Shown one piece after another: positions 17,761-53,070 of a DNA stretch of 64,000 nucleotides. How positions within the stretch are numbered: position 1 is the stretch's first letter; every line of letters starts with the position of its first letter. The stretch comes from Prolixibacteraceae bacterium (GTDB lineage: Bacteria; Bacteroidota; Bacteroidia; Bacteroidales; Prolixibacteraceae): contig JAQUIJ010000006.1 in assembly GCA_028683385.1 (NCBI GenBank), forward strand, positions 124,001 to 188,000. Reading direction: 5' to 3'. Both the position numbers and the translations under genes were made by a program. The notes beneath the pieces are model-generated. The model ran no database searches, was not told where the DNA came from, and saw only the letters and a list, made by a program, of their open reading frames with translations.

Positions 17761-19098
17761 ATGATGCACAAAAATTTGACGTTTTTTTTCATTTTTTTAA
17801 TAGTAACGGGAAATACACTCGTGGCTCAGAACACCTGGAACTTAGCCCGATGTATTTCCTTTTCACTTGAAAACAACATTGGGTTGAAAAAAATGGAAAT
17901 CGAAAAGACGATTGCTTCAGAAGACCTGAACCAGTCAAAACGAGATCTTTTACCAGGAATCAGCGCTTCATCGCGAGCCGGAATTAGTTTTGGACGTTCG
18001 ATTGACCCCAATACCAACGGCATTATTAACACTGAGTTTTTTAACAACAGTTACGATCTTGGTACTTCGATGACCCTTTTTAACGGGTTTAAACTCCTGA
18101 ACCAGGTTGAATATCAGAAATTCAGAAAAAGAGCCACCGAACTTAACCGCATAAATGCTGTTGACGACCTGGCTTTTAGCGTGATGAATTCGTATTTTGA
18201 TGTGCTTTACTACAAGGGAATGTTAAAAATTGCTGAGGAGCAGGTAGAAACATCGCGCATTAATCTGAAGAAAATAAACAAACAAGTAGAACTGGGAATG
18301 AAATCGAAAACCGATCTGCTTGAAATGAGTGCCAATTTCGAAACCGAAGAATTACGCCGCATTCAGGTAGAAAATAGTCTGAAAACCGCTACTCTCCAGT
18401 TGAAACAGCGCATGAACCTGACCGATACCACCGCAATGGTTTTAGATGAAGAACAAAGTCCGTTGGTAATTTCCGCGAAACCCGATCAGCAAAGCCTTTT
18501 TTCGTCTTACACGCAATGGTCTCCCTACTATCAGTCGTTTGAAGCGCAATTGAAAGCAAGCCGAAAATCGTTAGCAATTAGCCGATCACAGCTATATCCT
18601 TCGCTAAGTGCCAACGCATCAATGGGAACCGGTTTCTACGAAACCACCAAAGATGATGCCGGGAAAACTATTGCATTCAGGACCCAATTGGAAAATAACC
18701 GAAACAAATATGTTGGTGGTTCGCTCAATATTCCGATTTTTAGTCGTTGGGCTGTACGTTCCGACATCAAGAAAGCTAAGCTGCAGTTGGAGCAGGCCCA
18801 GAATACGCTCGATGAAGAAAAACAAAAGCTGTATTTTGAGATGGCCAACAATCTAAACGATCTGGAAGCTCTTGAGAAAGAATACAATCAGTACCTGAAG
18901 CAGCAGGAAGCCGATCAACTTGCTTTTCAGGCATCGGAGCGAAAATTTGAACAGGGTTTAGTTAGTGTTGTCGATTTCTACATTGCTAAAAACCGACTGG
19001 CTAATTCGGCTAGCCAGGTTCTAAATGCCCGGTTGCATTGGGAAATAAAGAAAAAAGCGCTCGATTTTTACTCCGGAAAACGATTCTGGGAGCAGTAG
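17761..19098 (+). CDS. TolC-family outer-membrane efflux protein
   Basis: 445 residues with a signal peptide (~1-22). Two repeated halves rich in long amphipathic helices follow the OEP pattern: LARCISFSLENNIGLKKMEIEK at the N-terminus, a strand region (SRAGISFGRSIDPN) and NQVEYQKFRKRATELNRINA; the second half has SLNIPIFSRWAVRSDIKKAK and closes with VVDFYIAKNRLANSASQVL. Such proteins form trimeric channels through outer membrane and periplasm. The adaptor and ATPase genes follow on the same strand, so it should be the exit duct of a MacAB-type tripartite system. A sigma-54-like promoter with paired upstream sites precedes it. Confidence 0.92.
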   Translation: MMHKNLTFFFIFLIVTGNTLVAQNTWNLARCISFSLENNIGLKKMEIEKTIASEDLNQSKRDLLPGISASSRAGISFGRSIDPNTNGIINTEFFNNSYDLGTSMTLFNGFKLLNQVEYQKFRKRATELNRINAVDDLAFSVMNSYFDVLYYKGMLKIAEEQVETSRINLKKINKQVELGMKSKTDLLEMSANFETEELRRIQVENSLKTATLQLKQRMNLTDTTAMVLDEEQSPLVISAKPDQQSLFSSYTQWSPYYQSFEAQLKASRKSLAISRSQLYPSLSANASMGTGFYETTKDDAGKTIAFRTQLENNRNKYVGGSLNIPIFSRWAVRSDIKKAKLQLEQAQNTLDEEKQKLYFEMANNLNDLEALEKEYNQYLKQQEADQLAFQASERKFEQGLVSVVDFYIAKNRLANSASQVLNARLHWEIKKKALDFYSGKRFWEQ

Positions 19099-19234
19099 CA
19101 TGGAGCAGAGAGCAAAGAGCCCAGAGGAAAACGGAGAGTGAATTCCGGATTCCGAAAAGCAAAAAAAATAATAAAAAACGGTTTTCGATACCGGAACTTG
19201 AAACTTGAATTTTTGAACTTGAAACTATACGATC
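19099..19234. repeat. Spacer with short dispersed repeats
   Basis: Between tolC and the adaptor lie GAGCAGAGAGCAAAGAGC-like words (19103-19120) and direct repeats of GAACTTGAAACTTGAA (19195-19226). These resemble low-complexity intergenic repeats of Bacteroidota; a related word in inverse orientation is at 9441-9460. No gene. Confidence 0.45.
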
Positions 19235-20491
19235 ATGGGAATGGATAAAGTTATTGAAAAGCAAAAGGGGTTGAGACCCAAACACATCATCTGGATTGTT
19301 GGGGGATTGGTATTTGCCTTTTTGTTGTATAAAGTTGTTTTTACCGAAAGTGGATCAACTTTCAGAGCCGAAAAAGATAAGCTGACCATCAGCACAGTGG
19401 AAGACGGTTTGTTTAACGACTACATTACAGTTATTGGGCAGGTAGAACCAATTTCAACCATTTTTCTGGATGCCGAAGAAGGTGGAAAAGTTGAAGAAAA
19501 ACTGATTGAAGAAGGTGAGATGGTGAAAAAAGGCGATATTATCCTGAAGCTGAGGAACAACGACCTCAACCTGAGTATCATGAATAGCGAATCGAGCATG
19601 GCCTACCAAACCAATGAGCTCCGCAATACACAGATACAAATGGAACAGCAGAAAATACAGAATAAGCAGCAGTTGCTCTCGATTGATTATGAACTCGTGC
19701 GGTTATCGAGAAATTATGAGCAGCAGAAAGCATTGTATAATGACGGGTTAATCGCCAAAGAAGATTTTCTGAAAGCCGAAGAAGATTATCTCAAATCGAA
19801 GAAAAACCGCGATCTCATTTATATGAAACTGGTTCAGGATTCAATCTTTCGCGAAAATCAAAAACTACAGATGGATCAAAGCCTCGGTAATATGCACCTT
19901 AACCTGAAAGTAGTTCAACAGCGTCGTGAAGACCTGAATGTAAAAGCACCGGTTGACGGACAGCTCGGTTTACTTAATGCCGAAATTGGTGAATCAATCA
20001 ACAAAGGGCAACGGATTGGACAGATAAACATTCTCGGTAATTTCAAGGTAAACGCTAAAATCGACGAACACTATATCGACAGGGTTGTCCGCGGATTAAC
20101 AGCTGCACTCGACCGCAACGGCACCAACTTTAACCTCACCGTGAAAAAAGTATATCCTGAAGTTCGTGATGGTCAATTCGAAATTGATCTGATATTCGAT
20201 GGTACCACTCCCGACAACATCCGCACCGGACAGACTTACCACATCAAACTCGAACTGGGCGAATCAGGTAAAGCAGTATTACTGTCTCGCGGAGGGTTCT
20301 TCCAGAGCACTGGTGGGCAATGGGTCTTTGTACTGAATCAGGACGGAACTGAAGCAACCAAGCGAAACATCAAAATAGGCAAACAGAATCCGCAGTATTA
20401 CGAAGTACTGGAAGGTCTAAATGCCGGCGAAAAGGTAATCACTTCGGGCTACGAAATGTTTGGGACAAACGACCGGATTGTGCTGAAGTAG
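19235..20491 (+). CDS. Periplasmic adaptor (HlyD/MacA-type membrane-fusion protein)
   Basis: 418 residues with one N-terminal membrane anchor (~17-37). A first lipoyl half-motif (VEEKLIEEGEMVKKGDIILK) is followed by a coiled-coil hairpin (~105-205, rich in Gln, Lys and Leu) and the second lipoyl half (VKAPVDGQLGLLNAEIGESI). A beta-barrel and membrane-proximal domain end in EGLNAGEKVITSGYEMFG. This is the normal order for adaptors linking inner-membrane permeases to TolC. It is the only adaptor in the locus and would have to serve all eleven permeases or only some of them. An element carrying a four-helix-bundle gene separates it from the first ATPase. Confidence 0.9.
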   Translation: MGMDKVIEKQKGLRPKHIIWIVGGLVFAFLLYKVVFTESGSTFRAEKDKLTISTVEDGLFNDYITVIGQVEPISTIFLDAEEGGKVEEKLIEEGEMVKKGDIILKLRNNDLNLSIMNSESSMAYQTNELRNTQIQMEQQKIQNKQQLLSIDYELVRLSRNYEQQKALYNDGLIAKEDFLKAEEDYLKSKKNRDLIYMKLVQDSIFRENQKLQMDQSLGNMHLNLKVVQQRREDLNVKAPVDGQLGLLNAEIGESINKGQRIGQINILGNFKVNAKIDEHYIDRVVRGLTAALDRNGTNFNLTVKKVYPEVRDGQFEIDLIFDGTTPDNIRTGQTYHIKLELGESGKAVLLSRGGFFQSTGGQWVFVLNQDGTEATKRNIKIGKQNPQYYEVLEGLNAGEKVITSGYEMFGTNDRIVLK

Positions 20492-20504
20492 CGGAACGGT
20501 GACT

Positions 20505-21029
20505 GGAGAAGGGAGACCCGAGAACGAAATCAAGAAAAGGGAAACTGGAAAACGATGGATATTTTTTCATAAATTTCAGTTACTAACTTTAAAATATCTA
20601 GTATGAACACGAGAATTGAAAAATTTGAAGATCTTGATGTTTGGCAAAACGCAATATCGTTAAGTGTTGATGTTTATAGCAGATTCCAGAATTGTAAAGA
20701 TTATTCGTTAAAAGATCAGATTTGCCGAGCATCCGTCTCCGTTCCATCCAACATAGCCGAAGGTTTTGAAAGGCAGTATAATAAAGAGTTTATTCAATAT
20801 TTATTTGTTGCTAAAGGTTCAGCAGGAGAAGTCCGCACTCAATTATTAATTGCCTTTAAGTTAGGCTTGTTAAGCGAGTCAGATTACCAGTTTTTATTGG
20901 AGAATAACCGAAAAATATCAGCACAATTATACAATTTAATCAAAATCCGGAAAGAACGATTTAGTTAATAACTTAAGAAAAGGCTCTGCATTCCGGTCTC
21001 CGGTCTTCGGTCTCCGGTCTCCCTTTTCC
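20505..21029 (+). mobile_element. Inverted-repeat element carrying a four-helix-bundle (IVS-type) gene
   Basis: The left arm (20505-20527) begins GGAGAAGGGAGACCCGAGA; the right arm (21006-21029) in inverse complement begins GGAAAAGGGAGACCGGAGA. The arms enclose one gene of the 23S-rRNA intervening-sequence protein family. The element sits between the adaptor and the first ATPase of what should be one operon. Mobility is inferred from structure; no target duplication was identified. Confidence 0.55.
20603..20968 (+). CDS. Four-helix-bundle protein (23S rRNA intervening-sequence family)
   Basis: 121 residues with family hallmarks in order: FEDLDVWQNAISLSVDVY, DYSLKDQICRASVSVPSNIA followed by EG, FIQYLFVAKGSAGEVRTQL and a final helix SAQLYNLIKI. 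The family is named from proteins encoded inside intervening sequences of 23S rRNA genes; structures are pentameric four-helix bundles and the function is unknown. Many copies occur in intergenic repeats of Bacteroidota, as here. It lies inside a transporter operon but is not expected to take part in transport. Matching inverted arms on both sides suggest it travelled as a unit. Confidence 0.88.
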   Translation: MNTRIEKFEDLDVWQNAISLSVDVYSRFQNCKDYSLKDQICRASVSVPSNIAEGFERQYNKEFIQYLFVAKGSAGEVRTQLLIAFKLGLLSESDYQFLLENNRKISAQLYNLIKIRKERFS

Positions 21030-21044
21030 ATATTCCAATTTTAT

Positions 21045-21743
21045 ATGATACGTACAGTAAACCTTAACAAAGTATTCCGCACCGAAGAGATTGAAACCAG
21101 TGCGTTGAACAACGTAAACCTTCATATAAAGAAGGGCGAATTTGTAGCCATCATGGGACCTTCGGGCTGCGGCAAGTCAACCTTGCTCAACATCATTGGC
21201 TTGTTGGACAACCCAAGTACAGGCGAGTATTATTTCGATAACCAGGAGGTTGGCGCTTTTAAAGAGCGAAACCGTACTTTACTCCGGAAAGGCAACATCG
21301 GCTTCGTTTTCCAGAGTTTTAACCTCATCGACGAACTCAATGTGTACGAAAACGTCGAGCTTCCGCTTATTTACCTAAAAATGAGTGCCAGAGAGCGCAA
21401 AGAGATGGTTGAGAAGGTACTCGATCGCATGCAGATTGGACACCGTAAAAAACATTTTCCGCAGCAATTATCCGGAGGACAGCAGCAGCGTGTTGCCATT
21501 GCCCGCGCCGTAGTCGCCAACCCAAAACTGATCCTTGCCGATGAGCCTACCGGTAACCTCGACTCGAAAAACGGGCTTGAAGTCATGAACCTGCTCACCG
21601 AATTGAATCGTGAAGGAACAACCATAGTAATGGTAACCCACTCGATGCACGACTCTGAATTTGCCCACCGCGTGATTAACCTTTTTGACGGACAGGTAAT
21701 TACCGAAGAAGTGAAAAATAAAATGGGCGAAGTGCTGATCTAA
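21045..21743 (+). CDS. MacB/LolD-type ABC transporter ATPase 1
   Basis: 232 residues, a complete nucleotide-binding domain: Walker A GPSGCGKST (38-46), Q-loop Gln90, signature LSGGQ (142-146) with Arg149 after it, Walker B ILADE with Asp166/Glu167, D-loop Asp173 (GNLDS) and H-loop His199. All catalytic positions are canonical. The short length and the GLLDNPSTGEYYFDNQEV stretch place it with ATPases that drive FtsX-fold mechanotransmission permeases. It would work as a homodimer beneath a permease. It is the better candidate for the main motor of the eleven permeases, since ATPase 2 has altered residues. Confidence 0.94.
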   Translation: MIRTVNLNKVFRTEEIETSALNNVNLHIKKGEFVAIMGPSGCGKSTLLNIIGLLDNPSTGEYYFDNQEVGAFKERNRTLLRKGNIGFVFQSFNLIDELNVYENVELPLIYLKMSARERKEMVEKVLDRMQIGHRKKHFPQQLSGGQQQRVAIARAVVANPKLILADEPTGNLDSKNGLEVMNLLTELNREGTTIVMVTHSMHDSEFAHRVINLFDGQVITEEVKNKMGEVLI

Positions 21744-21761
21744 TACTGGTCTGAACAATGA

Positions 21762-21798: not shown

Positions 21799-21876
21799 CA
21801 GGAATAATCAAAGTCCATCACAGAAATCAAACGAGTCAAAACTGGGTTCGATCTTTCCGGAGTTGATACAATATGC

Positions 21877-21918: not shown

Positions 21919-21986
21919 AGAGACTGTATCAAAAGTGATTATGGTTTTTCAAAAACTTACAATTTGAAAGTACCGACAATGTAAAA

Positions 21987-22065
21987 CCCCTAAATCCCCT
22001 GAGGGGGCGGCTTTGAAGTCCCCTTCAGGGGAGGTTTGCCTGCCAGCCGCAGGCAGGGAGGGGTG
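21987..22065. repeat. Gene-less copy of the CCCCTGAAGGGG repeat
   Basis: It begins CCCCTAAATCCCCTGAGGGG, contains CCCCTTCAGGGG and a nested GCCTGC/GCAGGC hairpin, and ends GGGAGGGGTG. The outer words match the arms of the DUF559-bearing element at 38633-39092, so this looks like a solo, MITE-like member of that family. Confidence 0.6.
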
Positions 22066-22153: not shown

Positions 22154-24466
22154 ATGGGAAATCATTTTAAAATATACCTTAAACATCTTAAAAAGAATAA
22201 GATATACACCTTTGTTACCATCTTCGGATTTGCTGTTTCGCTCATGTTCGTGTTTCTGCTGGGCATTTACATCAAACAAGAGTTGTCGGTCGATCAGTTT
22301 CATGCAAACAAGAACCGCATTTACCGGCTTAGTCACGATAACGCCGCAGCGTTCGGGCCAGCAATTGCTGAAACACTCAAAAATCAATATCCTGAAATTG
22401 AAACTTTTACCCGGATATACGAAAATGGTGGAAATGCAAAATTCAGGGGAAATGAGCTCACGCGCTTTAAATACATGCTTGTCGACTCGTCGTTTTTCTC
22501 CATGTTTTCGTTTAGCCTGAAGGAAGGAAGCGCAACACAAGTGTTGGCCACCAAAAATTCGGTTGTACTTAGCGAATCGTTTGCACGGAAAATATACGGA
22601 AGCGAAAGTCCTGTCGGGAAATCGTTTACAATGAACAAGCTGGATTTTTTGGTTACTGGTGTAGCTCAAGACTTTCCGGAGAATACACAATTCGAGAAAT
22701 ACGATGCCATCCTGAATTTCAGGGCACTGGCAGATATCTGGGGCTGGAAAGAGCTGCTTACCTCAAACGACAATAGCTCATTTGGCCTTTATCTGATGGT
22801 GAAACCGGGAACCGACTTGCCCTCGAAGACGCCTCAAATTCTCGCTCAATTCAAAAAAGACTATTGGCTTTATACCCAAAATTTTGCGAAAACATTGAAG
22901 TTAGAACCGCTTACCGAAGTGTATTTCAGCAAAGAAGCATCGCCAGCAATCAAGCAAAACAGCCGGGTAGCCATTTTCCTCTTCGGAGGAATTGCTATCC
23001 TGATTCTTGTGATTGCCATCATCAATTACATTAACCTGACGGTTGCACAAGCCGGCTTCAGAAGTAAGGAAACAGCTATAAAGAAACTGATGGGAGGATC
23101 GAAAGGGATGCTCTTGCGTCAACACATCAGCGAATCGGTGGCACTTAGCTTTTTTGCCACGATCATCGCAATTGCATTAGCTTTTTTGGCTGAGCCATTT
23201 TTTAATGCGCAAATGGATTGTCAGCTAAACCTCAAATCGCAGATCAATATTGCTCTCCTGATCCAAATTATGGGTATAGTTATCGCTATTGGCTTTGTTT
23301 CAGGAATTATTCCGGCGTTTGTTGTCAATAAATTAAATCCGGTTGAGGTGGTGAAAGGGAACGTGCTCCGTACCAGCAAAAAGGGATATACCAAAGCGCT
23401 TATCGCTTTTCAGTATGGGATAGCCATCGTTTTACTCGTTTGCACCTGGACCATTGCACGCCAGTCGCAGTTTTTACAGAACTACGACCTGGGCTACAAC
23501 CGCGACAACTTGTTCTGGATGGAAAATACGGTTGAAGCTTCGCAAAAAGATGCCTTTCGGAATGTGATGAAAGCCATTCCGGGTGTTACCGAGGTTTCGT
23601 TTTGCCGCGGAACCCCAATCGATGGTGGCAGCAACCAATCGTTCAACTACAAAGAGAAACCTGTCAGTTTTCAAGAGTTTGTTGTTGACAGCGCTTATTT
23701 TGGTTTATTGGGCATGAAGGTAGAATCTACCGGCTCAGCGTATAGTAAAAATGGCGTATGGATTAATAAAGCCGCCATTCAGCAATTGGAACTGGAGAAC
23801 AAACCTGTTACTGCACCATTTTATAAAGATAATTTGCCTGTATTGGGCATAGTTAAGGACTTTAATTTCAGGTCTCTGCGCACCAAAATCGGACCGCTTA
23901 TCATCAGGCAACTCCAGCCGAATGAACACGCCTGGAAAATTCTTGTGAAGCTCGACGGCACTAACCTGGGACAAACAGTCGACAAAATTAAAAAAGCACA
24001 AGCATCGTTTACCGGCGGTATTCCTATGGATTCGGGCTTTATCGACAACGAAGTGAATCAATGGTATGAGCGAGAAGTCAAACAGTCGCGGCTGATCGGG
24101 GCTTTTACCCTGTTATCGATCATCATCTCGTCGATGGGAATTTTTGCCATGTCGCTGTACTACATTCAGCAAAAGATAAAAGAAATAGGTATTCGTAAAG
24201 TAAATGGTGCCAAAATTTCGGAAGTCATGGTTTTGCTAAACAAGGACTTTGTAAAATGGGTAGTCATTGCTTTTGGATTTGCCACACCCATTGCATTCTA
24301 TGCCATGAACAAATGGCTCGAAAACTTCGCTTACAAAACCACGCTCAGTTGGTGGATATTTGCTTTGGCTGGTTTGCTGGCGTTGGGAATTGCCCTGCTA
24401 ACAGTGAGTTGGCAAAGTTGGCGGGCGGCTACGAGGAATCCGGTTGAAGCGCTCCGCTACGAGTAA
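22154..24466 (+). CDS. Double-FtsX ABC permease 1
   Basis: 770 residues. The layout, shared by all eleven, is membrane helix 1 (~17-40), a large periplasmic MacB_PCD-like domain, three helices (~280-305, ~330-350, ~365-395), then a second half: helix ~425-445, a second periplasmic domain and three helices near the C-terminus. One chain thus holds two fused FtsX units of the lipoprotein-export/MacB type. Cytoplasmic coupling motifs are FRSKETAIKKLMGGS in half 1 and KEIGIRKVNGAK (from residue 676) in half 2. The C-terminal ~95 residues belong to the shared cassette and end NPVEALRYE. It is the first permease behind ATPase 1, after a spacer full of relics. Substrate unknown. Confidence 0.9.
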   Translation: MGNHFKIYLKHLKKNKIYTFVTIFGFAVSLMFVFLLGIYIKQELSVDQFHANKNRIYRLSHDNAAAFGPAIAETLKNQYPEIETFTRIYENGGNAKFRGNELTRFKYMLVDSSFFSMFSFSLKEGSATQVLATKNSVVLSESFARKIYGSESPVGKSFTMNKLDFLVTGVAQDFPENTQFEKYDAILNFRALADIWGWKELLTSNDNSSFGLYLMVKPGTDLPSKTPQILAQFKKDYWLYTQNFAKTLKLEPLTEVYFSKEASPAIKQNSRVAIFLFGGIAILILVIAIINYINLTVAQAGFRSKETAIKKLMGGSKGMLLRQHISESVALSFFATIIAIALAFLAEPFFNAQMDCQLNLKSQINIALLIQIMGIVIAIGFVSGIIPAFVVNKLNPVEVVKGNVLRTSKKGYTKALIAFQYGIAIVLLVCTWTIARQSQFLQNYDLGYNRDNLFWMENTVEASQKDAFRNVMKAIPGVTEVSFCRGTPIDGGSNQSFNYKEKPVSFQEFVVDSAYFGLLGMKVESTGSAYSKNGVWINKAAIQQLELENKPVTAPFYKDNLPVLGIVKDFNFRSLRTKIGPLIIRQLQPNEHAWKILVKLDGTNLGQTVDKIKKAQASFTGGIPMDSGFIDNEVNQWYEREVKQSRLIGAFTLLSIIISSMGIFAMSLYYIQQKIKEIGIRKVNGAKISEVMVLLNKDFVKWVVIAFGFATPIAFYAMNKWLENFAYKTTLSWWIFALAGLLALGIALLTVSWQSWRAATRNPVEALRYE

Positions 24467-24540: not shown

Positions 24541-26871
24541 ATGAAAACTATCTTATTGACATTTAGAAAACTCAAAAAAAGCAAAACAGCCACATTACTT
24601 GGAATTGCAGGTCTGGTAACGGGGTTGGTTTGTGTGCTCTACATCTTTTTCTGGGTAAACGATGAAACGCGATACGACCGTTTCCACAAGAATATCGACC
24701 GTATTTTTGTGGTTCATGCTTATTTGGAAGGAGGGACAAAAACGGTAAACTTCAATGGTTGCCCCCCTGCGGTTTCCCCTGCATTGAAAGCGGAATATCC
24801 TGAAGTCGAAAGCACTTGCCGGTATATCCCTGCCTATTCTAAATTTCTGATCACTGCTGAAGGGAAAAAAAACGTACTGAATACCGCTTTTTCGGACAAC
24901 TCCCTTTTTGATATTTTCACTTTGCCATTTATTTATGGAAATCAGGGGGATCCAAACGTTAAAAATCAGATCGTGTTAACCAAAACAGCTTCTGCTGGTA
25001 TTTTCGGGGATATGAACCCTGTTGGGAAAATGGTTCGCTTCAATAATTCGCAAGACCTTGTTGTTGCAGGAGTTATCGACGATATTCCACACAATTCGAC
25101 TATACAATTCGACGCTGTTCTCCCACTCGAAAATCTTGGGGTACTTTATGGCCAAACCAACAACAATTATTTGAACACTTGGTACAACAACAGTTTTACC
25201 ACCTTTGGGTTACTTTCGTCTCCTTCTGGTTTTGAAAAAATCGCCACATCCATCACGCGCCGGATACAAAAAGATATTCCTGAATCAACCAATTACCTGA
25301 GAGCTTATCTTTTTAAAAATGGTTATTTATACGAACAAAAGCATATCAGCAATGTAAGGATTTTCAGTCTTATTGCACTTTTGGTGCTGTTTGCAGCAAC
25401 CCTCAATTTCATCAACCTGATTACCGCAAAGTCGACCAAACAGGCCAAAGAAACCGGACTGCGCAAATCGATCGGGGCTACACGCGGCAACATCATCAAG
25501 CTAATTTATTCCGATGTTGCCATACTCTGCCTGCTGGCATTCGTCTTGGCATTTTTTGTTGCCATTGTTGGATTGCCGTTGTTTAATCAAATGATTGGCA
25601 AACAAATCGAATATTCAGCCCTGTTTTCGCCTAAGCCTATCGCAATAATGGTTCTGGCCTATTTAGTAACCACTTTTCTCGCCGGAAGTTACCCCGCCTT
25701 TTTCCTGTCTTCTTTCAAAATAACAGAAACACTTACCTCTAATTTCCACTCCGTAAAAAGCAGGGGAATCTTCAGGAACTCACTTTTGGTAACCATTTTT
25801 ATGGTTTCAATCATTCTGCTCACTTCAACCATTGTAATTTCCAAACAGACTCTTTTTCTGCAAAAGATGGATATTGGGTTTAACAAAGATCAACTCATTT
25901 ATGTCAATCTCGACGGAAAACTTCAGGAAAAAGCAAAATCGCTGAAAGAGGAAATAGGGCGCTCGGCTGGAGTATCCTCGTCAACCATTACCGATTTCCT
26001 TCCTGTATTTGTTGGCAACAACGGTGAAGGCTGGGGTTGGGAAGGCAAAGACGCCAATTTCAAACCATTGGTAACCACTTGCAGCACCGATGAAGACATG
26101 ATCAAAACGCTGGAAGCAAAACTCATAGAAGGCAACTATTTTAGTAACGACCGCCAAGGGATTGTAATCAACAAAGCCTTTGCCGATGTGATTGGCTGGA
26201 AAAACTTCGTCGGAAAAACATTGAACGCATATGGCCAGACCCACCAGGTGGTAGGTGTCATCAATAATATCGAATACAACTCCCTGGCCGAAAGCTGCCG
26301 ACCAATGGTTATCGGTCAAATAAACGAACAATCAGCGAGATACCTGATCATAAAAGCAAACAGCAACCAGATGGACAAGACCATCAAATCGATCAGTAAA
26401 ATTTGTGAGGACATTGAGCCCGATTTCCCTGTAAGCTATGGTTTTGTTGATCAGGAATACGCAAAATTGTATGCATCGGAAACCAACCTCAAACAATTGG
26501 TGGGTGTCTTCTCAGGTTTCACGATAATCGTATTGTGCCTTGGTCTTCTGGGAGTAGTCATGTTCATGGCCGAACAGAAAACAAAAGAGATTGGGGTACG
26601 CAAATGCCTGGGTGAGCAAGAAACTTCGATTATCATGCGATTGGTCAGACCGCTTTTACTTTCAGGAATAGGAGCCAGTGCAATTGCCATTCCGGCAACA
26701 TGGTATGCCATGAACCGCTGGCTTGAGAATTTTGCCAATAAAACTACGCTTAGTTGGTGGATTTTTGTCATGGCAGTTTTAATCGTGCTGGGAATTGCCT
26801 TGCTAACAGTTAGCTGGCAAAGCTGGAAAGCAGCAACACGAAACCCGGTGGAAGCGCTCCGCTACGAGTAA
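24541..26871 (+). CDS. Double-FtsX ABC permease 2
   Basis: 776 residues from the ATG at 24541. The half 1 coupling motif is STKQAKETGLRKSIGATRG. Half 2 begins with a divergent KEIGVRKCLGEQETS and a divergent next helix, but from about WYAMNRWLENFANKTTLS onwards it matches the shared cassette and ends NPVEALRYE. The junction inside the last ~60 residues makes it look like a mosaic, so a conversion tract probably covered only the extreme 3' end. It lies 74 bases after permease 1 and is the last gene before the second sigma-54-like control region, so it probably ends the tolC unit. Confidence 0.9.
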   Translation: MKTILLTFRKLKKSKTATLLGIAGLVTGLVCVLYIFFWVNDETRYDRFHKNIDRIFVVHAYLEGGTKTVNFNGCPPAVSPALKAEYPEVESTCRYIPAYSKFLITAEGKKNVLNTAFSDNSLFDIFTLPFIYGNQGDPNVKNQIVLTKTASAGIFGDMNPVGKMVRFNNSQDLVVAGVIDDIPHNSTIQFDAVLPLENLGVLYGQTNNNYLNTWYNNSFTTFGLLSSPSGFEKIATSITRRIQKDIPESTNYLRAYLFKNGYLYEQKHISNVRIFSLIALLVLFAATLNFINLITAKSTKQAKETGLRKSIGATRGNIIKLIYSDVAILCLLAFVLAFFVAIVGLPLFNQMIGKQIEYSALFSPKPIAIMVLAYLVTTFLAGSYPAFFLSSFKITETLTSNFHSVKSRGIFRNSLLVTIFMVSIILLTSTIVISKQTLFLQKMDIGFNKDQLIYVNLDGKLQEKAKSLKEEIGRSAGVSSSTITDFLPVFVGNNGEGWGWEGKDANFKPLVTTCSTDEDMIKTLEAKLIEGNYFSNDRQGIVINKAFADVIGWKNFVGKTLNAYGQTHQVVGVINNIEYNSLAESCRPMVIGQINEQSARYLIIKANSNQMDKTIKSISKICEDIEPDFPVSYGFVDQEYAKLYASETNLKQLVGVFSGFTIIVLCLGLLGVVMFMAEQKTKEIGVRKCLGEQETSIIMRLVRPLLLSGIGASAIAIPATWYAMNRWLENFANKTTLSWWIFVMAVLIVLGIALLTVSWQSWKAATRNPVEALRYE

Positions 26872-27040: not shown

Positions 27041-27092
27041 GATAAAAAAGTAAAATTATCGATTTATATTGATTGTCAGGGTATTAATATTG

Positions 27093-32429: not shown

Positions 32430-32448
32430 CAACATTAAAACTCAAAAT

Positions 32449-33141
32449 ATGATACACTTAAACAACATCGACAAGTATTACGATTCAAAGTTTCAACGGA
32501 CATTCGTTCTGAAAGCTGTTAATCTGGAAGTAAAAGAAGGTGAATTCGTCAGCATTATGGGCCCCAGCGGCTCAGGTAAGTCAACTTTGCTGAATATTAT
32601 CGGGCTGCTGGACGCGCCGTCGGCTGGTGAATATTCGCTGTATGATAAATCGGTTCTCGACCTGAAGGAAAAAGCAAAGGTTGATTACCACCGCAATTTC
32701 ATGGGCTTCATTTTTCAGGCTTACCACCTGATTGAAGAAATGACCGTTTACGAGAACATTGAAACTCCGCTTATTTACAAAGGAGTAAAAAGCCGCGACC
32801 GACAGGCTATGGTGGCCGATCTGCTCGACCGTTTTAACATGGTGGCCAAAAAAGATCTCTTTCCGCAACAACTTTCCGGAGGACAACAGCAACTGGTTGG
32901 TATTGCCCGTGCTATTATTGGTAAACCCAAACTTTTGCTGGCCGATGAGCCAACCGGAAACCTGCAATCGGTTCAAGGCGAAATGATCATGGAAACGCTT
33001 CAGCAACTAAACAACGAAGGAATGACTATCATTCAGGTAACCCACAACGAAAAGTTCGCCGAATACGGGAAACGGATCATCAGGCTGGAAGATGGAATTA
33101 TCAGGAAAGACGTTGCAAGCAAGATTGTGTTTTCGATATAA
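32449..33141 (+). CDS. MacB/LolD-type ABC transporter ATPase 2, with altered D-loop
   Basis: 230 residues that align gap-free with ATPase 1 through the motifs: Walker A GPSGSGKST (38-46), Gln90, LSGGQ (142-146), Asp166/Glu167, His199. Three positions differ: Arg149 after the signature is Leu (QQQLVGIARA), Ala151 is Gly, and the D-loop Asp173 is Gln (GNLQS). The D-loop Asp normally contacts the Walker A of the opposite subunit, so this ATPase may cycle poorly as a homodimer, or be regulatory, or pair with ATPase 1 (inference). It stands in the middle of the array with permeases on both sides. Confidence 0.92.
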   Translation: MIHLNNIDKYYDSKFQRTFVLKAVNLEVKEGEFVSIMGPSGSGKSTLLNIIGLLDAPSAGEYSLYDKSVLDLKEKAKVDYHRNFMGFIFQAYHLIEEMTVYENIETPLIYKGVKSRDRQAMVADLLDRFNMVAKKDLFPQQLSGGQQQLVGIARAIIGKPKLLLADEPTGNLQSVQGEMIMETLQQLNNEGMTIIQVTHNEKFAEYGKRIIRLEDGIIRKDVASKIVFSI

Positions 33142-38628: not shown

Positions 38629-38632
38629 TTTT

Positions 38633-39092: not shown

Positions 39093-39118
39093 ATTAGAGC
39101 TGGGTATCAACCACTCAA

Positions 39119-44613: not shown

Positions 44614-46929
44614 ATGGTAAAACTCAAAATTATTGTCCGAAATCTTTTACGACAAAAGCTGAATTCCGGGGTTATTGTTATCAGTCTGGCAATTGGAATG
44701 GCGTGCATCAACCTGATCGCCCTTTTCATAACCCGCGAGTTAAATACCGATAGTTTTCAAATTCAAAAGAACCGGATTTATGCATTGAAATGCGACGATC
44801 CATGGGTTAAGTCCGGGAAAATGTATCACTGCCGGGTTGGTTCGGTTGAATACATGAAGGCCAATTTTGCTCAGATCGAAGATTTTTGCAGAGTGAGTCC
44901 GGCTTCAGCACAAAAAGTGGTTGTAAACAACGAAACTTATTTTGACCGTCCCGGAATAATAGCCACTTCCCGAAATTTTTTCAATTTTTTCAGCTATCAA
45001 CTTCTGACAAAGAATCCAAAAACTTCGTTGGCGGCAGATAATGATCTGGTTATTTCGGAAGATTTAGCCATAAAATACTTTGGACCCGGTAATGCTGTTG
45101 GCCAAATAATAACCCTGGTGGGTGGCGGGAAAGAAGAACAAATGGTCGTTTCTGGGATTTTCAGAAAACCTGTTGAAAATTCGCAGATAAAATTTGAAAT
45201 GGTTCGCCCCATCAAAGAACAAGATAGTCGCTGTTTCGTCAGATTATCCAGCGGTGCCAGTCCAGCGGATGTTGAAAACCTGTTTGCGTCAAATAAAGCC
45301 TCTATTCCTTCGATTAACGACGGAAAACCAGGTCAGTATTATCTGCAATCGTTTCAAAATGCTTATTTCGATACATCACGGCATATCAGTTTCGAAGCCA
45401 GCCGTGACAAAAAGGATTTGTGGATTGCATTGATGATAGGACTGGTCATTATCACGATTGCTTCGTTCAATTATCTTGGATTGGTAAACAACAAATTAAT
45501 CGAAAAAAGCAAGGCTTTTGCCATCCAGCGGGTAAATGGCGTATCAAAATTCGGGTTGGTGTTAAACTTCATGAGTGAAAGTCTGCTGCTGGTTGGTATT
45601 TCATTTGTGCTGAGCTTGTTTTTGATGCTCTGGATGTCACCCTTTTTTAATGGATTGACAGGCACAACTATTTCAGTCGCCTCCGTATTTCGGCCACGGG
45701 AATTTTTTATTCTCCTTGCCATTGTTGGCTTGCTGCTATTTATCACCTTGCTGTTTGTAATTTTCCGAGTTCGTGGAAAAGTGAAAATCAATGTTTTGAA
45801 ACCTGGTGGAAACCAAATTGGGAAACGGGTTCAATTACCTGCTTTCAACATTTTTCAACTGGCCAGTTCCCTGGTGCTCATCATTTTTTCGATCATCATT
45901 ATCAAGCAAATCAATTACATTTCGCAAAAGCCAATTGGGCTCGACAAGCAGGTCATTGAAGTTAAAATTCCGGGACAATTTGCCGATAAGATTTCTGTAT
46001 TTAAGCAAGAATTAAAAGCGAATTCATCCATCAGTTCTGTTTCCGTTGCCAATGCTTCACCGGTGCTGGAACACTTCCTTCTTTTGTTGCACTACGATGA
46101 AAATGGAACCGATAAACAATACTCGCCAGCCGGTTTTACCGGAGATGAAAACTATATTTCGACACTTGGTATTCAGGTTTTGGAAGGAACCGGGTTCTCC
46201 GGAAATCCAGAGGCCGACAAAAATAAATGCCTGATAAATGAATCACTGGCCGAAATGTTTCCAACTCAAAACTTAATCGGGAAAGGAGTGCCCGGGATGG
46301 AAGACCGAATTGTGACAGGTATTGTAAAGGATTTTCATTATTCCAGTTTAAAATCGCTGGTTGAACCTGCTTTCATAGCATTTGATCCGAAAGGACTTCA
46401 CCTGATGGTTAAAGCATCTGAAAATCAAATTGCTCAGGCACACGAAGCAATTGCTGAAACCTGGAAGCAATTGATTCCCGATTATCCGTTGAACATGGAG
46501 ACTATCGGCGACCGGTACGATTGGCTTCATCGTGAAAATCAAAATTATCTTCAGTTGATTGGCGCCTGTTGTATTATCAGTGTCTTTTTGTCGATGATCG
46601 GATTATTTGCCATCTCGTTTCAAAGTAGCCGATACCGAACCAAAGAAATCGGCATTCGAAAAGTAAACGGAGCCAAAATTTCTGAAGTGATGGCCATGCT
46701 CAATAAAGACTTTGTGAAATGGGTGGCCCTAGCCTTCATCATCGCCACGCCCATTGCATATTACGCCATGAACAGTTGGCTTGAAAACTTTGCCTACAAG
46801 ACCAACTTGAGTTGGTGGATTTTTGCTCTTGCTGGAATACTTGCACTGGGAATTGCCCTTCTAACAGTAAGTTGGCAAAGCTGGAAAGCAGCAACGAGAA
46901 ACCCGGTGGAAGCGCTCCGCTACGAGTAG
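44614..46929 (+). CDS. Double-FtsX ABC permease 9
   Basis: 771 residues. The half 1 coupling motif EKSKAFAIQRVNGVSKFGL again lacks the usual Glu-Ile-Gly. The half 2 motif YRTKEIGIRKVNGAKISEV opens a complete cassette with small differences (NSWLENFAYKTNLS, LAGILALG), ending NPVEALRYE. The TAG stop is part of the stem of a perfect 15-bp hairpin that follows at once, which probably ends this transcription unit before the third control region. Confidence 0.9.
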   Translation: MVKLKIIVRNLLRQKLNSGVIVISLAIGMACINLIALFITRELNTDSFQIQKNRIYALKCDDPWVKSGKMYHCRVGSVEYMKANFAQIEDFCRVSPASAQKVVVNNETYFDRPGIIATSRNFFNFFSYQLLTKNPKTSLAADNDLVISEDLAIKYFGPGNAVGQIITLVGGGKEEQMVVSGIFRKPVENSQIKFEMVRPIKEQDSRCFVRLSSGASPADVENLFASNKASIPSINDGKPGQYYLQSFQNAYFDTSRHISFEASRDKKDLWIALMIGLVIITIASFNYLGLVNNKLIEKSKAFAIQRVNGVSKFGLVLNFMSESLLLVGISFVLSLFLMLWMSPFFNGLTGTTISVASVFRPREFFILLAIVGLLLFITLLFVIFRVRGKVKINVLKPGGNQIGKRVQLPAFNIFQLASSLVLIIFSIIIIKQINYISQKPIGLDKQVIEVKIPGQFADKISVFKQELKANSSISSVSVANASPVLEHFLLLLHYDENGTDKQYSPAGFTGDENYISTLGIQVLEGTGFSGNPEADKNKCLINESLAEMFPTQNLIGKGVPGMEDRIVTGIVKDFHYSSLKSLVEPAFIAFDPKGLHLMVKASENQIAQAHEAIAETWKQLIPDYPLNMETIGDRYDWLHRENQNYLQLIGACCIISVFLSMIGLFAISFQSSRYRTKEIGIRKVNGAKISEVMAMLNKDFVKWVALAFIIATPIAYYAMNSWLENFAYKTNLSWWIFALAGILALGIALLTVSWQSWKAATRNPVEALRYE

Positions 46930-47086: not shown

Positions 47087-47111
47087 TACTTGAACTATAA
47101 ATACATTAGCC

Positions 47112-49490
47112 ATGATAAATTATAGCCTTAGATTGATTTTCAGGAACTTTAAACGAAATAAAAGTACTTTCTTCATAAACCTGATTGGTTTATCAACTGC
47201 TTTTGCCTGTGCTATCCTTATTTTTCTTTGGGTAAACGATGAAAAGCAAATCGATAAATTCCATCAGTTCGACAAACAACTATACCAGGTGATGGAGAAT
47301 CATCATTCGCCTGAAGGTATTTTTACACAAGCCTGGACGCCCGATTTGCTGGGTCGGTCGTTTGCCGCTGAAATGCCTGAAGTGAAAATGGAAACTTCGG
47401 TTATGCCTGCCTCATTGCTGGGTGATTTTTCGCTAAGTACCGGAGATCAGAAAACCAAAGCCGCGGGCCAATTTGCCGATTATAATTTCTTCAAAGTTTT
47501 CTCTTTCGGTCTAACTCAGGGCGATCCCTCGCAAGTGCTCCGGCCTAAAAACGCCATTGTTATTTCCCGAAAGCTGGCCCATACACTTTTTGGCACCACA
47601 GAAAATGTGATCGGGAAAACCATCGATTGGGAACTCCTGAATTTTAAATATCAGGCTGTAGTTTCTGGGGTTTTTGAGGAAGTACCGGAAAACTCGACCA
47701 TGCAATTTGACTTTGCTTTAAACTACGATAGCTGGATGGAATTATCGGAAAAAGTGGGACGGAAAATTCAGTGGGGCAACCATGCTCCGTGTACTTACCT
47801 TGTGCTTAATAAGGGAGTTGACGTCGCTAATTTTAATGCAAAAATTGAGAACTTTCACAAAACCAAGTTCAACGGATCGAACATTACCATGTTTGCAGTG
47901 CCCTATTCCAGCCAATACCTCAATGGCACCTACGAAAATGGGGTGCAGACCGGAGGAAGAAACAGTTACGTAAAGCTGTTCACCTTAATCGCACTTTTTA
48001 TCCTGCTGATAGCCGGAATAAACTACATGAATTTGTCGACCGCGCGCGCAACGCGAAGATTTAAAGAAATCGGTGTAAAAAAAGTTGTTGGAAGCGGGCG
48101 TTTGCCGCTGGCTTTACAGTTTATTGCCGAATCGGCTATTTTGTCGTTTTTCGCTCTTATTTTCTCCGTCGCAATGGTTCTGGCTTTGCTGCCACTATTC
48201 AACCAAATCACAGGGAAACACCTGCTATTTACATTTACGCTGCTTCATCTTTTAGCTGTTTTGGGGGCAAGCCTGCTGATGGCAGTTGTGACCAGCCTTT
48301 ACCCGGCAATTTATCTTTCCGGAGTCAGCGCTTTCCGCAGCTTGAAAGGGAAACAAATCAATTCGGCGACCGAATTATGGGCACGAAAAGGTCTGGTCGT
48401 TTTTCAGTTTGTTGTATCGTTTGTTCTGATCAGTTCGGTTTTGCTGGTGTATAAACAAGTTGAGTTTATTCAAAGTAAAAATCTGGGCTACAACCGGTTC
48501 AACTTAATCTATTTCAATAAGGAAGGCGGAATTGCTGAGCAGGAAAATGCGTTCTTGGCAGAGGCCCGAAAAATTAACGGAGTTGAAAACATTTCAAGTA
48601 TTGGCGGAAGTCTGCTTGGCCGGTCAGCAAGTACCTACGACGTTGGATGGGAAGGCAAACCTGCCGATGCCAGTATTCGATTCGAGGTACTTCCGGTGAA
48701 TTATCAAATGATTGAAACCCTTGAAATAGGATTGGCCGAGGGTCGCAGCTATTCTTCGGATTTTGGGAATGAAGACGATAAAATCATGCTAAACCAATCA
48801 GCTGTTGAAGTAATGGGAATCAAGGATCCGGTAGGAAAAATAATCCGTTTCTGGGGATCAGAAAAACAGATCATTGGTGTGTTGGAAGATTTCAACTTTG
48901 AATCACTTCACCAAAAAATAGGTCCGTTGCTATTCTATTATAATCCAACGAAAACTCTTGATGTTATGGCCCGAATTCAGGCCGGGCATGAAAAACAGGC
49001 CCTTGCCGAACTCGGGAAACTATATTCGAAGTTTAATCCCGGCTTTTCATTCGACTATCATTTTATGGATGCCGCTTTTCAGTCTCAATATGAAGCAGAA
49101 ACTCGCGTGGCTGTTTTGTCTCGTTATTTTGCCGGACTGGGAATTTTAATTTCATGCCTCGGATTATTCGGATTGGCTGCCTTTGCTGCCGAACAAAGGT
49201 TAAAAGAAATAGGTATCCGCAAAGTAAACGGGGCTCGCATCTCAGAAGTAATGACCATGCTCAACAGCGAGTTTATAAAATGGGTAGCCGTCGCTTTTGT
49301 CATTGCCACGCCAATCGCATTTTATATCCTGAACAAATGGCTCGAAAGCTTTGCCTACAAAACACCACTTAGTTGGTGGATTTTCGCCTTGGCTGGTTTG
49401 CTGGCGTTAGGAATTGCGCTGCTAACGGTTAGTTGGCAAAGCTGGAAAGCCGCCACGAGAAACCCGGTGGAGGCGTTGAGGTACGAATAA
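47112..49490 (+). CDS. Double-FtsX ABC permease 10
   Basis: 792 residues. Half 1 motif TRRFKEIGVKKVVGSGRLP is canonical. Half 2 QRLKEIGIRKVNGARISEVM leads into the complete cassette (YILNKWLESFAYKTPLS), which shares long runs with permease 5, including silent positions, and ends NPVEALRYE. It is the first gene of the third control region. A gene-less inverted-repeat element separates it from permease 11. Confidence 0.9.
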   Translation: MINYSLRLIFRNFKRNKSTFFINLIGLSTAFACAILIFLWVNDEKQIDKFHQFDKQLYQVMENHHSPEGIFTQAWTPDLLGRSFAAEMPEVKMETSVMPASLLGDFSLSTGDQKTKAAGQFADYNFFKVFSFGLTQGDPSQVLRPKNAIVISRKLAHTLFGTTENVIGKTIDWELLNFKYQAVVSGVFEEVPENSTMQFDFALNYDSWMELSEKVGRKIQWGNHAPCTYLVLNKGVDVANFNAKIENFHKTKFNGSNITMFAVPYSSQYLNGTYENGVQTGGRNSYVKLFTLIALFILLIAGINYMNLSTARATRRFKEIGVKKVVGSGRLPLALQFIAESAILSFFALIFSVAMVLALLPLFNQITGKHLLFTFTLLHLLAVLGASLLMAVVTSLYPAIYLSGVSAFRSLKGKQINSATELWARKGLVVFQFVVSFVLISSVLLVYKQVEFIQSKNLGYNRFNLIYFNKEGGIAEQENAFLAEARKINGVENISSIGGSLLGRSASTYDVGWEGKPADASIRFEVLPVNYQMIETLEIGLAEGRSYSSDFGNEDDKIMLNQSAVEVMGIKDPVGKIIRFWGSEKQIIGVLEDFNFESLHQKIGPLLFYYNPTKTLDVMARIQAGHEKQALAELGKLYSKFNPGFSFDYHFMDAAFQSQYEAETRVAVLSRYFAGLGILISCLGLFGLAAFAAEQRLKEIGIRKVNGARISEVMTMLNSEFIKWVAVAFVIATPIAFYILNKWLESFAYKTPLSWWIFALAGLLALGIALLTVSWQSWKAATRNPVEALRYE

Positions 49491-49493
49491 AAA

Positions 49494-49585
49494 TGTCAGA
49501 ATCAGGATTTATCGGATAAAAGGATGAATAGGATTTGAAAAGATATCCTGAAAATCTTTAAATCTGGTTAATCCTGATTCTGACA
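49494..49585. repeat. Gene-less inverted-repeat element (92 bp)
   Basis: TGTCAGAATCAGGATT (49494-49509) is the perfect inverse of AATCCTGATTCTGACA (49570-49585); the interior contains further pairing GGAT/ATCC words. The outer arm matches the element carrying GxxExxY copy 1 at 31957, so this looks like a deletion derivative. It lies 4 bases after the permease 10 stop. Confidence 0.65.
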
Positions 49586-49621
49586 ATATATAAAGTTTAA
49601 GACAATTTAAACGATACTGCC

Positions 49622-51970: not shown

Positions 51971-52071
51971 GCCAACTATTTCATATAAAAACAATACAAA
52001 ATGCAACGGAAGGAAAAATATTGCGTCTTTATTTCCGACAGCCTCATTTAAACAATTTAAAAAGACTCGCT

Positions 52072-53070
52072 ATGAAAATTTTGACTACTATGAAAATGTT
52101 CTCATTCGTTGCCATGATCATATCCATGTTTTCGTTGAATGGATTTGCGAAGGATGACCAGCCTACTATAACAAAGACCTTTGAGATGAAAGAGCCTGGC
52201 TCGCTCAACGCCTCATCGTCGGGTGGAGGAGTAAAAGTGGAAACACACGATCAACCACAGGTAATTATACAGGCATTTGTGCGAAAAAACAATAATCTTT
52301 TAGCGCCAAACGACCCGATGGTAAAAGAAGTTTTGGAAGCATTCGATGTAAATTTTTCAAAAAGTGGTTCTGCCGTTACCGCAATTGTTGAACGCAAGTC
52401 GCGCATGAACTTCTGGAATAATGTAGGTATTTCGTTAACCATTCTTGTTCCGAAGGAAATGTCGTGCAAGGTTTCGTCAAGCGGAGGTGGTGTGAAAATC
52501 TCAGGAGTGAAGGGAACACACGATTTCTCCAGCAGTGGTGGTGGTGTACACCTCGAAAATGTAAGCGGCACTACTGAAGCCAGCTCTTCAGGAGGTGGAG
52601 TGCACGCAACAAACCAAAATGGCGACGTGCGTTTAAGTTCAAGCGGAGGCGGTGTTACCATAGATGATTCCCGGGGAACCGTTTATGCACATAGTTCAGG
52701 AGGAGGAGTAACCGTGAAGAATTTTAAAGGAAACGTGGATGCCAGCAGCAGTGGAGGCGGAGTTCATGTTTCAGGAGAATGTGCTTCGGTAAAAGCCAAA
52801 TCCAGCGGCGGTTCAGTTCATGCCGATATCTGGAATTTAAGCAAGGAATTAAACCTTGAATCCAGTGGTGGAGGTGTTGATGCGGTTATTCACAATGGCA
52901 AAAAACTTGGCCTCGATCTGGATTTGCAATCCGATCGGGTAAACATTGAGCTTCAGAATTTTTCCGGAAAATCGGAGAAAAACCGAGTAAAAGGAACAAT
53001 GAATAATGGCGGAATTCCTGTTTATATGCATGCTTCCGGAGGAAGTGTAAATGTGCAGTTCGAAGAATAG
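52072..53070 (+). CDS. Exported DUF4097-type beta-solenoid protein with SSGGGV repeats
   Basis: 332 residues from the ATG at 52072, giving a signal peptide that ends near SLNGFAKDD; an ATG at 52090 is an alternative. The body has about ten SSGGGV or SGGSV repeats spaced 17-20 residues apart from residue ~50 to the end (for example SSSGGGVHLENVSG, SSSGGGVTIDDSRG), the pattern of a putative adhesin-like beta-solenoid in which each repeat makes one turn. It is probably periplasmic or on the cell surface. It closes the permease 10-11 unit, so it may be a target, receptor or cargo of that transporter (inference). A bidirectional terminator follows. Confidence 0.78.
   Translation: MKILTTMKMFSFVAMIISMFSLNGFAKDDQPTITKTFEMKEPGSLNASSSGGGVKVETHDQPQVIIQAFVRKNNNLLAPNDPMVKEVLEAFDVNFSKSGSAVTAIVERKSRMNFWNNVGISLTILVPKEMSCKVSSSGGGVKISGVKGTHDFSSSGGGVHLENVSGTTEASSSGGGVHATNQNGDVRLSSSGGGVTIDDSRGTVYAHSSGGGVTVKNFKGNVDASSSGGGVHVSGECASVKAKSSGGSVHADIWNLSKELNLESSGGGVDAVIHNGKKLGLDLDLQSDRVNIELQNFSGKSEKNRVKGTMNNGGIPVYMHASGGSVNVQFEE

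Follow-up and report, generated by a model that had tools for sequence, protein, structure and literature searches.

Exporters of the MacAB-TolC type, assigned to the type VII ATP-binding cassette (ABC) transporters and thought of as mechanotransmission machines, couple a motor in the inner membrane to a periplasmic adaptor and an outer membrane channel. According to the available excerpts of one source (PMC5985334), a major coupling helix between transmembrane helices (TM) 2 and 3 of MacB relays the movements of the ATPase domains, and a C-terminal minor coupling helix touches these domains as well. Two other described systems are close to the locus presented here: the darobactin exporter DarBCD, which is made of one DarB, one DarC and one DarD (PMC9055067, excerpts), and the acidobacterial duplicated orphan permeases (ADOP), of which two Dyadobacter genomes hold 28 and 33 copies by RAST annotation (PMC11573002, excerpts). 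The locus lies in a 64,000-nucleotide stretch of a Prolixibacteraceae bacterium (the window; positions 124001-188000 of contig C19 in genome G000, which comprises 5.9 Mb in 54 contigs) and encodes eleven double permeases with two ATPases (ATP1 and ATP2), one adaptor and one TolC. We hold, with a probability of roughly 0.65, that it is one MacB/DarBCD-like chassis for many swappable permeases (P1 to P11), and that this set is renewed by recombination anchored in a C-terminal tail. Among titles and opening lines of abstracts in the open PMC literature, with subscription papers and preprints outside the scope, no recognisable description of such a locus was found.

The permeases and their constant tail

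Pfam cut-offs for MacB_PCD and FtsX are passed by 11/11 permeases, with two FtsX stretches per chain and no ABC_tran domain in any chain (the scan took in 40 window proteins). The frames, all on the plus strand, span 22154-51970 and measure 770-802 codons, P3 being 792 or 823 codons long according to whether it starts at a TTG at 27069 or at a later ATG at 27162; the start of P4 is also uncertain, a TTG with an ATG three codons downstream. The original prediction had placed eleven intact same-strand permeases, two ATPases, one adaptor and one TolC in 17761-53070, which Pfam and the open frames bear out. It had also called the permeases consecutive: the count stands and strict adjacency does not, since the permeases are interrupted by ATP2, by two GxxExxY (PDDEXK_3) genes, by a DUF559 gene and by a PAP2-like gene whose Pfam score stays below the cut-off.

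An AlphaFold2 model of P10, built from 48 aligned permeases (mean predicted local distance difference test score 87.7, predicted template modelling score 0.85), consists of two MacB-like halves with eight long membrane-type helices and two periplasmic domains (residues 57-271 and 465-659). The first half has helices 17-45 and 284-313, a coupling helix at 317-325 and helices 330-367 and 377-403; the second has helices 419-455 and 661-695, a coupling helix at 697-705, helices 710-744 and 755-781 and a last helix at 785-790, membrane and coupling helices being named here by reading the model through MacB anatomy. Foldseek searches with the model place YbbAP, MacB and LolCDE on top with probability 1.00, and MacB is also matched in the PDB by sequence. 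Conservation reaches 0.52-0.76 in the second-half coupling helix, as against 0.37-0.42 in that of the first half.

The strongest clue to how such a permease set is kept and renewed is a constant tail. Neither this tail nor the tail remnants between genes nor the divergent kinase/regulator pair figured in the original prediction. Seven of the eleven window permeases end in up to about 95 nearly invariant residues, on bodies that are about 25% identical in protein and saturated in DNA (36-44% identity). Over the last 74 codons P1, P5, P6, P7, P9 and P10 are mutually 71-87% identical and P2 is 66-70% identical to those six; the likeness starts about 95 codons before the stop codon, or about 62 in P2. 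If a constant tail is one at least 65% identical to those of three or more permeases with unrelated bodies, 100 of 148 full permeases from 18 genomes have it. The constant segment covers the second-half coupling helix, TM7, TM8 and the minor coupling helix, and its edge is sharp: for 568 unrelated-body pairs in the window's genus, identity rises from 0.33 to 0.83 at residue 692 of P5 (W_P5), and identity at fourfold sites climbs from about 0.3 to 0.43-0.60 from residue 707 onward.

Concerted evolution and proposed exchange

Across the 148 permeases the constant tail follows the genus, and the body follows its own lineage. For tails of unrelated bodies, agreement at fourfold sites is 0.422 within one genome, 0.444 within one genus and 0.353 between genera, and for bodies it is about 0.30 within a genus and between genera alike; the genus effect on tails is reached by 0 of 1000 genome-level permutations. 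A tree of tails (74 rows) has 15 changes of genus label, where shuffled labels average 50.4, and 52 changes of body-group label, where the minimum is 21 and shuffling gives 61.4; a tree of an equally long body segment turns this round, with 42 changes of genus and 21 of body. A further test took ortholog pairs with a body synonymous divergence (dS) below 1.5, which share sequences and are not independent: in 9/23 pairs with a constant tail the tail is silently more diverged than the body at P<0.01, as compared with 0/23 for a control 80-residue segment and 0/11 for pairs without a constant tail. The clearest excess separates G012_P9, of the closed congener G012, from Wc9_P2, an off-array permease of the window genome, whose silent difference is 0.26 in the body and 0.74 in the tail. 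Together, the genus-level signal and the ortholog-pair test show that the tails evolve in concert, and they support recombination. Gene conversion within one genome was considered as its sole cause and is ruled out by the unrelated-body tails of the window's genus, which are equally alike between genomes.

Selection for docking on the ATPase, acting on amino acids or favoured codons alone, might be thought to keep the tails alike with neither recombination nor cassette exchange. Such selection would explain why the tail amino-acid consensus is almost identical among the genera compared, and why the constant segment coincides with the second-half coupling helices of the P10 model, as MacB anatomy places them (PMC5985334, excerpts). 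It is nevertheless a distinctly improbable account of the silent sites, at which unrelated-body tails agree more within a genus than between genera while bodies do not, and of the constant tails that have diverged silently beyond their own bodies; nor does it predict a tail tree that tracks genus and not body.

Shared DNA also begins at the tail. Blocks of at least 400 bases were listed in five array comparisons, and in three cases, belonging to two of the comparisons, the block starts at gene fraction 0.88 (the tail start) despite unrelated bodies: Draconibacterium mangrovi P4 with D. sediminis P2 (identity 0.58 to 0.73), D. mangrovi P8 with D. sediminis P5 (0.51 to 0.71) and D. aestuarii P11 with D. 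mangrovi P6 (0.29 to 0.80). Most of the remaining block ends are intergenic or coincide with the end of a gene; two blocks starting at 0.66 and 0.78 lie in genes with related bodies. Between the window and G012, ATP1 and its upstream DNA match at 87%, the P1 bodies differ and the match resumes in the last ~180 bases of P1 and runs on into the DNA behind it; at the far end the final permeases are unlike as far as their stop codon, beyond which the two sequences agree again. Stray tails were found as well, 24 pieces outside full permeases in 0.77 Mb and none in shuffled sequence, of which 18 are left once four at contig ends and two weak ones (short of the 3' end) are set aside. In G012 the search picks up one such orphan tail in the interval from ATP1 to P1.

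A possible source of bodies is seen on contig C9 of the window genome, where its two other double permeases sit amid conjugation genes (P-loop_TraG, DUF4133, DUF4138, TraM, type IV secretion system coupling protein, relaxase and ArdC) with no adjoining ATPase; one of the two bodies is 94% identical to a permease in the G012 array. Besides the two permeases, the conjugative element, L031 (G000:C9:8001-27000) with L239 and L240, has genes for a methyltransferase, an esterase-like product and type I restriction, along with an orphan tail. Matches to its TraG, DUF4133 or ArdC proteins were absent at 17 other off-array loci, and plasmid records yielded distant relatives only, whose identity, over a part of the query, does not exceed 31.5%.

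Smaller insertions lie between the operon genes. GxxExxY, DUF559 and 23S_rRNA_IVP genes are enclosed in imperfect inverted repeats (31956-32430, 38632-39093 and 20505-21029), and two further repeat pairs close by enclose no gene (49494-49585 and 21983-22040). The window's GxxExxY and DUF559 genes lie 3-47 bases past permease stop codons. Over the window and related genomes, the flanking inverted repeats beat every shuffle at 19/35 GxxExxY, 6/6 IVP and 5/13 DUF559 loci; the analysis took in 35 of 70 GxxExxY, 6 of 8 IVP and 13 of 20 fetched DUF559 loci (28 DUF559 matches), and a control with swapped flanks gave a 95th percentile of 11.5 and a maximum of 19.5. By their look these would be small mobile elements resembling rRNA intervening sequences. 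Of the 70 GxxExxY matches (16 genomes), 11 fall in array stretches. That the nuclease genes drive tail recombination was considered and is not proved: an array that merely harbours mobile elements explains them equally, because the same genes occur elsewhere with inverted repeats.

Repeated tails, orphan tails and inserted nuclease-gene elements would also be left by neutral expansion, that is, by unequal crossing-over at the tail repeats that multiplies copies without separate functions. This we consider very improbable indeed, as the bodies are old and distinct, all eleven frames are intact and the ratio of replacement to silent change (dN/dS, omega) is low wherever it can be measured. Its median is 0.082 and its maximum 0.148 among 34 ortholog pairs with dS<1.5, which cover P3, P4, P5, P6 and P7 of the window (0.039-0.148). 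P9 gives 0.094 at dS 1.54 and P2 0.066 at dS 2.52; saturation affects P1, P8 and P10, and P11 lacks an ortholog, no body in a 60-permease set being more than 31% identical to its own. Purifying selection is thus shown where dN/dS could be measured, and there the expectation that the copies are under selection has held up.

Proposed motor sharing and control

The locus is conserved among relatives. Their loci were chosen by the adaptor, as the best 80 of 227 stretches encoding a relative of it; because flanks were cut at 10 kb or by the end of a contig, counts of gene presence are lower bounds. The closest adaptor relatives (82-89% identical) belong to Prolixibacteraceae or Bacteroidota and then to Draconibacterium, which like Sunxiuqinia and Puteibacter is a member of the Prolixibacteraceae. 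Among the 80 loci, OEP is present in at least 75, an ATPase in at least 71, and kinase and regulator in at least 68 each; at least 52 have two or more full permeases, and in at least 46 the permeases outnumber the ATPases. The D. aestuarii stretch encodes 20 permeases and 3 ATPases, that of JC049 17 and 2, Puteibacter 12 and 3 (ten of the twelve in an array with ATP1 and ATP2), D. mangrovi 12 and 2, Sunxiuqinia elliptica 11 with ATP1 only, D. sediminis 9 and 2, and D. orientale 7 and 2. Congeners of the window have 2-10 permeases per fetched stretch, some cut by contig ends. A search of related genomes for the gene order, which the original prediction had called for, thus finds the locus kept in the Prolixibacteraceae with up to 20 permeases.

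The same prediction had named, as one case that would speak against it, an ATPase elsewhere in the genome for each permease. ATP1 has 16 matches at E<=1e-25 in the window genome; the two of the array rank first and second (100 and 51%), ahead of one at 47%. G012 holds all of its ten full-length double permeases in the array, with one ATP1 and one ATP2; a search there with ATP2 at E<=1e-45 returns six ATPases, namely ATP2 (98%), ATP1 (51%) and four at 39-44%. Neither result refutes the prediction. ATP2 is single-copy at 73-98% identity in the 8/8 relatives' genomes searched, and in Sunxiuqinia elliptica it is found by itself, some 100 kb away from the array. ATP1 adjoins permeases in 7/7 named-isolate arrays. 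In a quickly built tree of 38 ATPases, the ATP1 and ATP2 sequences fall into two clades that join each other (support 97-100), apart from the three other ATPases of the window genome that entered; this placement is provisional, as three long branches were flagged unsure and rows without LSGGQ or outside the length limit were left out, including those of contigs C45, C51 and C28 of the window genome. Separately, P5 was tried as a dedicated partner of ATP2 and rejected, as the permease after ATP2 differs in group between genera; Daest_P5, the D. aestuarii relative of P5, is located far from ATP2.

We infer that the motor is shared from the gene counts, the unlinked ATP2 of one species and the permeases without a neighbouring ATPase, and a single shared motor would be the most economical reading of these sequences. 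The earlier proposal of a motor and duct shared by interchangeable permeases therefore agrees with the gene counts and the scarcity of ATPases, the sharing itself staying at the level of a deduction. It is unlikely that each permease uses some other ATPase or none, as a true orphan of the ADOP kind. Off the array, 16/19 double-permease loci, a selection from eight genomes, have no adjacent LolD-type ATPase (one of the 16, L251, lies near a contig end), and the window genome has two LolD-type ATPases without a permease neighbour, both as this alternative would have it. Eleven permeases and two ATPases, however, make one-to-one pairing impossible, the second-half coupling helix is among the best-kept parts across unrelated bodies, and ATP1 stays beside the permeases from array to array. 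Off-array pairs of ATPase and permease do exist, at L238 (G024), L258 (G022) and L250 (G028), the last with matches to kinase and regulator adjacent.

The kinase and regulator genes are divergent from the TolC gene, and the DNA upstream of the latter holds a conserved promoter. An alignment of 16 upstream regions has the TGGCA of a sigma-54-type element in 16/16 and a -12 GC at the right distance in 13/16, and the double box nearby occurs once in the window genome, at this locus. A consensus scan of the window gave 121 sigma-54 matches with 112.7 expected, so single matches are uninformative and the cross-species alignment alone counts. From their position, the neighbouring kinase/regulator pair would control the locus. 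By hydropathy the kinases have no periplasmic domain, with two membrane segments and a loop of few residues in 12/12 examined (the window's included), a layout in which they presumably resemble BceS-type kinases.

This likeness raises the possibility that the permeases are sensors, each body reporting a threat to the envelope and passing the signal on to the kinase by way of the ATPases, on the model of BceAB and BceS. The response of BceS requires BceB and active BceA (PMC5985334, excerpts). A kinase of this build, a kinase/regulator pair kept in so many of the adaptor-chosen loci and a Foldseek match to BceABS, at lower rank, all fit this idea. The operon, on the other hand, includes an adaptor and a TolC, neither of which BceAB systems are known to have. 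Moreover, BceB has ten helices and one extracellular domain (PMC5985334, excerpts), a topology that the eight helices and two periplasmic domains of the P10 model do not match. We regard a sensor role as somewhat unlikely on balance.

Further genes surround the array. The 23S_rRNA_IVP gene precedes ATP1, and the DUF4097 toast-rack gene that comes after P11 is present too in the arrays of G012, G003 and Draconibacterium. Upstream, the PadR-type regulator and PspC/toast-rack pair is kept in several relatives, in the same order in G012 and G003. The PAP2-like gene (33212-33820) has switched sides of P5: the order is ATP2-PAP2-P5 in the window and ATP2-P5-PAP2 in G012, at 88.8% identity. Elsewhere in the window, the frame 55657-57207 fuses a NapC/NirT-type cytochrome domain to an FGE-sulfatase-type domain, a pairing that seemed unusual, and 2076-6401 encodes a large protein of 1441 residues that bears a C-terminal sorting domain for type IX secretion.

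Table 1. Features of the locus, in window coordinates.
Feature	Coordinates	Strand	Evidence or remark
PadR-type regulator and PspC/toast-rack membrane protein, upstream of the locus	12800..14788	+	Pfam PadR 8e-20, PspC 8e-21, Toast-rack 2e-25
Histidine kinase	14874..16223	-	Pfam PAS, HATPase_c; two N-terminal membrane segments, loop of few residues
NtrC-type response regulator	16220..17584	-	Pfam Sigma54_activat 4e-66, Response_reg, HTH_8; receiver, AAA+, Fis helix-turn-helix
Two palindrome-like boxes, putative regulator sites	17629..17667	+	Alignment of 16 upstream regions
Sigma-54-type -24/-12 element TGGCATTATTCTGGCACA	17721..17738	+	Alignment of 16 upstream regions
TolC-like outer membrane channel (OEP)	17761..19098	+	Pfam OEP 8e-55
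HlyD/DarC-like periplasmic adaptor	19235..20491	+	Pfam HlyD_3; RND_mfp subfamily cut-off passed
ATPase 1 (ATP1)	21045..21743	+	Pfam ABC_tran 8e-37; intact Walker A/B, LSGGQQQR
Decayed tail remnant before P1	21892..21918	+	By eye; missed by the tail search
Permease P1	22154..24466	+	Constant tail 24179-24466
Permease P2	24541..26871	+	Constant type in last ~62 codons only (26683-26871)
Permease P3	27162 (or 27069)..29540	+	Own, non-constant tail
Permease P4	29611..31956	+	Own tail but for the last 20 codons or so (by eye)
ATPase 2 (ATP2)	32449..33141	+	Intact Walker motifs, LSGGQQQL signature
Permease P5	33837..36197	+	Constant tail 35910-36197
Permease P6	36220..38628	+	Constant tail 38341-38628
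Orphan permease tail without body, between DUF559 and P7	39096..39147	+	nhmmer E 1.6e-6
Permease P7	39219..41609	+	Constant tail 41322-41609
Permease P8	42161..44563	+	Own tail
Permease P9	44614..46929	+	Constant tail 46642-46929
Permease P10	47112..49490	+	Constant tail 49203-49490; AlphaFold2 model
Permease P11	49622..51970	+	Own tail
DUF4097 toast-rack protein, end of array	52021..53070	+	Pfam 3.6e-6

A cassette proposal among known transporters

We propose that the TolC channel, the HlyD-type adaptor, ATP1 and ATP2 would form one tripartite chassis that an expanding range of interchangeable permeases uses in turn. Each permease, with its fused MacB-like halves, would be seated on a dimer of ATPases and, by moving its periplasmic domains at the expense of ATP, would push a substrate of its own, set by the differing bodies, into the common adaptor-TolC duct. 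By MacB anatomy the tail module (major coupling helix, TM7, TM8 and minor coupling helix) would be the part that touches the ATPase. Recombination between gene copies would keep this module alike, so that an incoming body, arriving by transfer on a conjugative element for example, could enter the array in frame by recombining at the tail and would then suit the motor already there. A sigma-54 promoter under the dedicated kinase/NtrC-type regulator pair may switch the array. Whether the whole amounts to a cassette system, in which the recombining docking tail is both the socket of the shared motor and the crossover site at which bodies are swapped, gained and lost, and in which conjugative elements carry the bodies, we judge to be about an even chance.

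Several observations weigh against this reading. Four of the eleven window permeases have no constant tail and are part of the same array. The conservation of the first-half coupling helix is only moderate, something that shared docking in its simple form does not predict. At P<0.01, 14 of the 23 constant-tail pairs have no excess in the tail; tails of the window's genus are as alike within genomes as between them (fourfold agreement 0.474 and 0.473; permutation p 0.12), which gives no direct sight of conversion within a single genome; and the effect on tails weakens in loci of more distant Bacteroidales, with fourfold agreement of 0.417 as against 0.332 for bodies and a tail amino-acid identity of 0.40 (56 pairs). 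A single off-array locus was found on a conjugative element. The two LolD-type ATPases without a permease neighbour, on contigs C37 (46% to ATP1) and C28 (41%), could serve some of the permeases. Contact of the permeases with ATP1 or ATP2 is at this stage a prediction.

If the chassis is as proposed, one exporter motor and duct would be given many specificities, and specificity bodies would have a route between strains and species. The "orphan" duplicated permeases of Bacteroidota, such as the Dyadobacter sets (PMC11573002, excerpts), might then be bodies that use a resident motor. The array permeases would also be natural chimaeras that mark the boundary between specificity and motor docking in MacB-type transporters.

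Of the described systems, DarBCD (NF038008, NF038010, NF038007) is alike in its separate double-FtsX permease, HlyD-type adaptor and MacB/LolD-type ATPase, and DarD is the top NCBIfam model for ATP1 and ATP2, as is DarC for the adaptor. The cut-offs are missed, however: DarB scores 57-98 against 700 for the 6/11 permeases scanned, DarC 190 against 450 bits, and DarD 285 (ATP1) and 258 bits against 375. The window locus further differs from DarBCD in its many permeases, its TolC and its kinase/regulator pair; a precursor peptide and a radical SAM enzyme would be expected next to DarBCD, and a Pfam scan for a radical SAM domain found none among the 40 window proteins, short precursor peptides not having been searched for. 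ADOP (TIGR03434) likewise has a doubled FtsX architecture and no ATPase to itself, and it is the best NCBIfam model for the same six permeases, at 171-283 bits against a cut-off of 622.3; unlike it, the window operon includes ATPases, adaptor and TolC. Because the cut-offs of both ADOP and DarBCD failed, we file the locus as a variant of the MacB-type tripartite systems. An inner membrane transporter, an adaptor and a TolC encoded together (OEP and HlyD passing their Pfam cut-offs) form a tripartite gene set, and MacAB-TolC is alike in MacB_PCD, FtsX, adaptor and TolC, with PDB matches by sequence and fold. It differs in that the window ATPase is unfused, the two halves are joined in one eight-helix chain and many permeases stand against each ATPase. 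YbbAP of E. coli is the best Foldseek match of the P10 model (E 1.3e-19), with two MacB halves and two periplasmic domains per chain and a separate ATPase; the two linking helices that YbbP has between its halves (PMC5985334, excerpts) are missing from the model.

Looking beyond this family, a shared motor is described for the group II ECF transporters and the MsmK-type shared ATPases, which are importers and not known to be homologous to the array. The likeness, one of function only, is that one motor is thought, as far as excerpts of the literature tell, to serve several exchangeable parts. A cassette array of the kind proposed would change a repertoire of export or sensing without the invention of a new pump. 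The group II ECF and MsmK systems are not known to have a constant recombining tail, no search aimed at one having been made. The array would thus be akin to integrons in the turnover of gene content, or to group II ECF transporters in the sharing of a motor, but with the exchange taking place inside the reading frame of each transporter.

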